This document shows, piece by piece, positions 14,057 to 15,391 of a stretch of 64,000 nucleotides of DNA; position 1 is the first letter of the stretch; the number at the start of each line of letters is the position of its first letter. The DNA lies in the NCBI RefSeq assembly GCF_002252635.1, contig NZ_NQKX01000006.1:186001-250000 (forward strand). The letters run 5' to 3'. The translations under genes and the position numbers were made by a program. The notes under the pieces were generated by a model. That model was not told the DNA's origin. It worked only from the letters and a program-made list of their open reading frames with translations, and made no database searches. This DNA comes from Synechococcus sp. MW101C3 (GTDB lineage: Bacteria > Cyanobacteriota > Cyanobacteriia > PCC-6307 > Cyanobiaceae).

Positions 14057-14578
<522 letters not shown>

Positions 14579-14614
14579 TCAAACGAGTAACCTACCAGCC
14601 CCGGCCTCCCTGCC

Positions 14615-15391
14615 CTGAAGCCCCGCGCTGTTCTGCTGTTCGACATCGACGGGGTCATTCGCGACGTGAGCGGCAGCTACCGCCGCGCCCTGGCTGAAAC
14701 CGTTCACCACTACAGCGGTTGGCGGCCCGGACAGACCGAGGTGGACGCGCTCAAGAGCGAAGGTCTGTGGAACAACGACTGGGAGGCATCGCTGGAGCTG
14801 CTGCGGCGCCACGGGCATGACCCGCTACCCAGCTTTGGCGCCCTGGTGGAGGTGTTCAGCCAGCTCTATTTCGGAGGGGACCCGGAGGGCCCGCCAGAAG
14901 CGTGGCAGGGCTTCATCCGGGAAGAAACGCTGTTGGTACAGCCGCCTTTCTTCGAGCAGTTGAGCCAGCACGGCTTCGCCTGGGGGTTCGTGAGCGGCGC
15001 TGAACCGGCTTCCGCGCGCTTCGTGCTGCATCAGCGGCTCGGATTGCCGCAGCCTCCCCTGATCGCCATGGGCGACGCTCCGGACAAGCCCGATCCCACC
15101 GGCCTGCTCACGCTTGCCGCCCGCCTGGCCACCACCGACCTGGGCCATGAAGCCCCCTTGGTGGCCTATGTGGGCGACACCGTGGCGGATGTGGAAACGG
15201 TGCAGCGTGCTCGGGCGTGCCATCCCGATCAGGCCTTCGTCAGCCTGGCGGTGGCTCCGCCTCACCTGCAGGACGCGGGAGCCGTTGCGCAACGGCAGGT
15301 CTACGAACACCACCTGAGCCAGGCAGGCGCCGACCACATCCTGACCACCACGGCGGAGGCTCCCGCGCTGCTGAACCGCCTGCTCGGCTGA
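14615..15391 (+). CDS. HAD-superfamily hydrolase (TIGR01548-like), probable CTG start
   Basis: A haloacid dehalogenase-type phosphohydrolase. The HAD motif I, LLFDIDGVIRDV, with both catalytic Asp residues, begins at about residue 7 only if translation starts at the CTG at 14615. In that frame a stop lies at 14588 and there is no ATG, GTG or TTG between, and the first GTG (14666) lies just past motif I. Motif IV is VAYVGDTVADVETV and a lysine-containing GDAPDKPDPTGLL precedes it. The cyanobacterial TIGR01548 family fits; the substrate is unknown. It is divergent from PSRP-3 and convergent with pepP. Automatic callers would probably truncate it at 14666. Confidence 0.85.
   Translation: MKPRAVLLFDIDGVIRDVSGSYRRALAETVHHYSGWRPGQTEVDALKSEGLWNNDWEASLELLRRHGHDPLPSFGALVEVFSQLYFGGDPEGPPEAWQGFIREETLLVQPPFFEQLSQHGFAWGFVSGAEPASARFVLHQRLGLPQPPLIAMGDAPDKPDPTGLLTLAARLATTDLGHEAPLVAYVGDTVADVETVQRARACHPDQAFVSLAVAPPHLQDAGAVAQRQVYEHHLSQAGADHILTTTAEAPALLNRLLG

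Follow-up and report, generated by a model that had tools for sequence, protein, structure and literature searches.

A conserved CTG in place of the ATG start codon of a HAD hydrolase gene beside psrp-3 in picocyanobacteria

Background

Where does translation of a HAD hydrolase gene begin when its reading frame holds no ATG, GTG or TTG ahead of the catalytic motif? This question is raised by a gene in a 64,000-nucleotide stretch of contig NZ_NQKX01000006.1 of Synechococcus sp. MW101C3 (the window, meaning the whole stretch of DNA analysed), for which a first-pass annotation, made from the letters of the window, had proposed a CTG start. CUG starts are hardly ever annotated in bacteria. According to PMC9845219, a cited survey of 69 bacterial genomes gives 20 such ORFs, or 0.024% of the annotated ORFs, and a CUG reporter had no detectable activity in tobacco chloroplasts or Escherichia coli, a silence that counts against efficient use of the codon. 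Initiation complexes formed by E. coli on CUG are described in PMC11497404 as less stable than those on AUG, GUG or UUG. On an evolutionary scale, PMC5622118 reports that 2 of 61,358 ancestral AUG starts became CUG and that, between close relatives, AUG had replaced 4.0% of the ancestral starts at GUG and 1.7% of those at UUG. Among the matches listed in a search of the open-licence literature, none described a CUG start in cyanobacteria, from which we claim no absence from print; searches of the same literature for a CUG start codon together with cyanobacteria, and for CUG starts together with ribosome profiling in Synechocystis, returned nothing.

The locus and the predicted enzyme

The HAD hydrolase gene, of the TIGR01548 family, occupies positions 14615..15391 on the + strand and would encode 258 aa if started at the CTG at 14615..14617, a codon assigned from the sequence, the all-frame scan and the ATG count presented below. 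Its frame is closed upstream by an in-frame TAA at 14588..14590, just as the first-pass annotation had read it. The TAA is followed by 16 sense codons, PTSPGLPALKPRAVLL, and then by the HAD motif I, FDIDGVIRDV (14639..14668), with the first Asp at 14642-14644 and the second at 14648-14650. The further claim that no ATG, GTG or TTG lies between stop and motif also agrees with the sequence, there being none among the 16 codons that separate the TAA from the catalytic DxD; additional CTG codons lie in frame at 14633 and 14636. The first codon of the ATG/GTG/TTG type in the frame is a GTG at 14666..14668, which had been placed just past the motif. It is in fact the last codon (V) of the motif, but it does lie downstream of both Asp, so that a start here would lose both catalytic residues. 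The predicted peptide from the CTG at 14615 begins MKPRAVLLFDIDG.

Divergent from this gene, on the - strand, lies psrp-3 (14057..14554), encoding the 30S ribosomal protein PSRP-3/Ycf65 (NF002740, 219 bits against a cut-off of 135; PF04839), with a probable ATG at 14554 chosen by inspection. The gap of 60 bases between the two genes contains a conserved leader element of 21 bases (14580..14600, no strand assigned; family consensus CAAACAACTAACCTACCAGCC), of which the window holds one copy, followed on the + strand by a short C-rich spacer (14601..14614) that runs from the element to the start and is without a Shine-Dalgarno-like site.

We found that the identification of the product as a HAD hydrolase, likewise made at first pass, is upheld by a score of 170 bits against NCBIfam TIGR01548 (HAD-SF-IA-hyp1), above the curated cut-off of 140.2, by a match to Pfam Hydrolase and by the DxD motif. 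An AlphaFold2 model of the CTG-start product has a mean pLDDT of 93.4 and a confident HAD fold, in which residues 5-9 are predicted to form the first strand, with D10 and D12 of the DxD directly after it. Phosphonoacetaldehyde hydrolase, a Thermococcus phosphatase, CbbY and phosphoglycolate phosphatase were among the closest solved folds, at 16-22% identity; phosphonoacetaldehyde hydrolase, CbbY and phosphoglycolate phosphatase (1rql, 4uat, 2yy6) share the HAD fold with a Foldseek probability of 1.00 but are only 16-19% identical to the HAD protein. The product is best described as a putative phosphatase-like enzyme, with fold matches too distant to name a substrate. The TIGR01548 model is itself named as hypothetical, and in the open-licence literature one unrelated paper names it. 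While the protein resembles TIGR01548 in score, motif and predicted fold, most members from this cyanobacterial family differ in having a CTG or TTG start instead of ATG.

That the missing start arose from a sequencing error, or from decay of the gene in this genome, is barely credible. The same 16 codons are present in G001 and G002, the sole two congeneric genomes compared, whose proteins are 90 and 89% identical to that of the window, and 43 further distinct family loci are likewise without a canonical start. In addition, the protein is intact, with a mean column identity of 68% among 25 aligned relatives. The assembly error that had been named as a possible source of the missing start is therefore not borne out, given the codons shared with the congeners.

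A leader element and the codon behind it

Within the family, an orthologue was present in 362 of the 400 genomes searched, which had been drawn from a larger group. The upstream regions of 136 loci (L001-L136, 80 of them named records) were read, and the motif was located in 134; the other two, L014 and L088, were missed by the first pattern and found later with a looser one. With identical upstream sequences counted once, 113 loci had distinct upstream sequence, and after 20 further loci had been added the set comprised 129 distinct family loci, whose sequences are related, so that counts of loci are not independent. No ATG, GTG or TTG was present between stop and motif in 46 of the 113; in 23 the only canonical codons were far upstream (>25 codons) or no more than three codons from the motif; and 44 had one at 4-25 codons from the motif, 16 of these being a TTG at -6 to -9, with hardly any of the 16 outside the Prochlorococcus-type branch.

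A near-invariant form of the leader element (CAAACNACTAACCTACCAGCC) lies between the HAD gene and the divergent psrp-3 in 108 of the 129 loci; the 21 loci that have no element at the HAD gene were left out of the codon counts that follow. Three forms of the element core, 11-12 bases long, had no exact copy in 40 stretches of 20 kb (0.8 Mb) sampled elsewhere in the window's own genome, and the 21 bases may serve as the promoter of psrp-3 or as a site in its leader that controls the ribosomal protein. Behind the element, 89 of the 108 loci have an in-frame CTG at 24-33 nt, mostly at 26-31 nt. At 24-38 nt, the in-frame codons were CTG only (83 loci), TTG only (12), CTG and TTG (5), GTG (1), CTG and GTG (1) or none of the NTG type (6), with ATG in no locus. 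The comparison with start codons of orthologues proposed at first pass thus gave an in-frame ATG at 24-38 nt in 0 of 108 element-bearing loci, and the upstream ATG in orthologues that had been feared as a refutation is absent where the gene keeps this position. In the sequences compared, CTG (TTG in the Prochlorococcus-type branch) is what replaces ATG in most of the family when the gene lies directly behind the element, and the CTG start is kept over at least 16 genus groups.

The exceptions are varied. Six loci lack an NTG codon at 24-38 nt: ATC stands at 27 nt in two of them, CTG at 16 nt together with GTG at 61 nt in another two, CTG at 48 nt in one, and ATG at both 15 and 48 nt in the last. 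A looser count, which admitted any canonical codon from element to motif in the 107 loci with the element and a close psrp-3, gave GTG or TTG in 32, ATG in 2, CTG only in 71 and neither in 2, part of the 32 being TTG starts at 27-38 nt. In 13 of 99 loci a GTG or TTG lies just 10-16 nt behind the element besides the CTG; we took these codons for chance or leader sequence, though they could be usable as starts. Several loci have a GTG at codon -3 or -2 that could serve as start instead, and L172 has CTGs plus an ATG at -6.

Where coding begins

The strongest evidence on the start comes from the lengths on either side of the CTG. In an all-frame scan for CTG at 24-33 nt behind the element core in 99 loci, 83 were in the HAD frame, and 0 and 1 in the other two frames. 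The distance from element to motif in the 99 loci, taken modulo 3, was 34/34/31, as even as expected of non-coding DNA. Because the frame bias is 83:0:1 while the distance from element to motif is random modulo 3, coding begins at the CTG. In the 108 loci, the distance from CTG to motif ranges over 7-29 codons, and 29 combinations of the two spacings keep the frame; ahead of the CTG the length may change by single bases, whereas beyond it whole codons alone are gained or lost, which is the signature of a start codon. The codons downstream of the CTG behave as coding. Both Asp of the motif are invariant in 129/129 family loci, with exchange between GAC and GAT; many leucine codons are used for the leucines at -1 and -2; and the valine at the position of the GTG at 14666 is encoded by GTG in 76, GTA in 24, GTC in 20 and GTT in 9 of the 129.

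These data bear on the possibility that translation starts elsewhere, at a CTG at -2 or -1, at the GTG at 14666, or at an upstream start followed by a frameshift. The CTG codons at 14633 and 14636 and the other frames, which are open upstream, lend it some plausibility, but we consider it very improbable. The leucine codons at -2 and -1 and the GTG were rejected as starts, since at all three positions codon usage varies across the 129 loci as it does at internal codons, and a start at the GTG would, in the predicted structure, remove strand 1 as well as both Asp. An upstream start with a frameshift was rejected in turn, because upstream distances are random modulo 3 and the in-frame stop closes the frame. 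Translation of the HAD gene from the CTG at 14615, as first proposed for the window, is supported as the most likely start and is, on this comparative evidence, very probable; for the CTG start beyond this one gene, the comparison provides good support.

To place the case within the genome, we set 0.85 Mb of the window's own genome (28%) against 1.2 Mb, or half, of G011, which belongs to another genus. In 41 of 424 orthologue-like pairs, the alignment reached 8 or more residues upstream of the first canonical codon of each member. When these were ranked by likeness of the peptide, 11 of 12 residues were alike for a tRNA-Val gene, a tRNA-His gene and the HAD gene; 10 of 12 were alike in three cases, the tmRNA and two that overlap other aligned frames; and 9 of 12 in three cases, all overlapping other frames. 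Overlap with another aligned frame was enough to set a pair aside, and a pair on the minus strand of C6 without such overlap had 7 of 12 residues alike. Among the 424 pairs, which sample 28% of the genome, nothing else that lacked an explanation equalled the HAD gene in strength. A looser control with a different overlap rule flagged 53 of 404 pairs at 5 residues, chiefly chance alignments, RNA genes and overlapping frames, and the comparison given here stands in its place.

Outgroups and a rearranged lineage

Twenty-three genomes of the class from other families were searched as outgroups; three had no orthologue match, 20 stretches were fetched, and one of these (L156) had no match to the motif, leaving 19 of 20 readable. 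An ATG lies within 25 codons in 17 of the 19, and GTG or TTG only in the other two. The leader element was in none of the 19, and 14 of them have a divergent psrp-3 no more than 350 bases away. Judged from these sequences, ATG appears to be the ancestral start and CTG/TTG a state tied to the family; since 17 of 19 outgroup orthologues have ATG, CTG is a lineage-wide state and not a fresh mutation in this genome. In a quick tree of 148 proteins, which has many weak branches, at least 14 label changes are required to account for the 85 rows labelled CTG, and the genus of the window is placed among CTG lineages; TTG takes the place of CTG in the Prochlorococcus-type branch.

A change of gene order offers an internal comparison. 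A transaldolase-like gene (fsa/talC related), which is related to TIGR00875 but scores below its cut-off (108.9 vs 245.95 bits), was tested for in 16 loci, of which 14 were family loci with the gene and the other two were outgroups. In the 14 family loci (L010, L020, L068, L070, L083, L092, L094, L101, L103, L112, L118, L163, L167 and L169), it directly precedes the HAD gene, and the element now stands before the transaldolase-like gene. The latter has ATG behind the element in 14/14, at 25-43 nt and in five of them at 25-31 nt, and the HAD gene behind it has an ATG within 25 codons in 13/14. The element is 155-218 nt from the start of the psrp-3 domain in 12 of the 13 rearranged loci that have psrp-3 in view, and 134-264 nt from it in the usual gene order; from its position, it seems to belong with psrp-3 and to stay beside it when the gene order changes. 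The ATG of the transaldolase-like gene in all 14 indicates that the site behind the element does not forbid ATG, and the rearranged loci suggest that the weak start belongs to the HAD gene when it occupies that place. Ten other genomes have the transaldolase-like gene on the strand of the HAD gene and 0.57-0.79 kb upstream of it; by the usual order psrp-3 would stand between the two, and we therefore read the arrangement in the 14 loci as a local rearrangement. The window's own genome has just a distant match to the transaldolase-like protein. The neighbourhood of the two genes suggests a link in sugar-phosphate metabolism.

Initiation at CUG

The window's genome encodes an initiator-type tRNA whose anticodon is CAT and whose stem is the usual GGG/CCC. 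A variant initiator tRNA was rejected as the cause, the anticodon stem-loop being of the usual kind, and with a normal CAT the CUG would be read by a C-U mismatch at the first position. An SD-like 4-mer is present upstream in just 8 of the 89 CTG loci and absent in 81, and C makes up 48% of the 20 bases that precede the CTG; together, the C-rich leader and the missing SD-like site point to slow initiation. Predicted pairing around the CTG was unremarkable (mean unpaired probability 0.52). A consensus scan detected no sigma-70 promoter, and Rfam gave one match, of 17.2 bits against a gathering score of 63. In being an NTG codon decoded by the initiator tRNA with a mismatch at the first position, the CTG resembles ordinary GUG and UUG starts. 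However, a small share of the latter had changed to AUG between close relatives, as counted in PMC5622118, whereas the HAD gene has no ATG at 24-38 nt in 108 loci despite a far more divergent family.

Why a weak start might be kept

The explanation that we favour is that the HAD transcript would rise from, or next to, the promoter of the ribosomal-protein gene psrp-3, a promoter that we presume to be strong. On a short, C-rich leader that has no Shine-Dalgarno site, the initiator tRNA would read CUG with its first-position mismatch, and such initiation should give a low rate of translation. The weak start may then be kept to hold down the dose of the phosphatase, a purpose that we infer from the HAD gene sharing the control region of a ribosomal-protein gene; where the HAD gene follows the transaldolase-like gene instead, it carries an ATG once more. 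This account as a whole, in which translation initiates at CUG and the weak start is retained to restrict the amount of enzyme next to a ribosomal-protein promoter, appears to us moderately likely. The more general proposition, that the picocyanobacterial family keeps CUG or UUG in place of an ancestral AUG, under selection against AUG, as a damper beside the psrp-3 promoter, with AUG restored upon leaving this position, we hold at slightly better than even.

Two alternatives accept the CTG as start and differ in why it is retained. One is a conditional switch, in which initiation follows the state of initiation factors or ribosomes and so ties the enzyme, together with psrp-3, to translation status. 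A precedent is infC, whose AUU start responds to the state of initiation factors or the ribosome, and the conservation of the HAD start beside a ribosomal-protein gene and a shared element would suit such a role; however, a start that is simply weak would agree equally well with the replacement of CTG by TTG in the Prochlorococcus-type branch, and we rate a switch as unlikely, though deserving consideration. The other is that the first base of the codon is held at the level of DNA, for example by overlap with a psrp-3 promoter box, and not by initiation strength. This reading, less likely again, could draw on the narrow spacing from the element, mostly 26-31 nt, near a possible -35 box of psrp-3, but the spacing varies by single bases while the frame is kept, and the transaldolase-like gene has ATG behind the same element, at 25-31 nt in 5 of 14 loci.

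Conserved non-canonical weak starts are known from infC (AUU) and pcnB (AUU) of enterobacteria, where they are thought to limit or regulate dose. The HAD gene is alike in that a rare start codon is kept across species, but differs in having CUG, in encoding a HAD hydrolase and in its link to a leader element beside psrp-3. The CUG start appears to be conserved in both marine and freshwater picocyanobacteria, and internal controls are at hand, since ATG is the codon in outgroups, in a rearranged lineage and in a second gene that lies behind the same leader. Selection on weak start codons thereby becomes directly testable by a one-base swap. Start callers limited to ATG, GTG and TTG would be expected to truncate or drop the HAD enzyme.

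Single loci showed further variation. The related loci L011 and L109 have ATC at codon -8, 27 nt behind the element, in place of CTG, and their sole GTG codons are those at -3 and -2, close to the motif, so that an ATC start or a shift to GTG is possible. The HAD orthologues of G313 and G325 have one in-frame TGA each inside the match, perhaps marking a broken copy or an assembly fault. At the junction before the HAD gene of L068, ATA stands where its sister L169 has ATG (codon -17), with the same GAGG-containing stretch upstream, and an ATA start is possible for the HAD gene of this locus.
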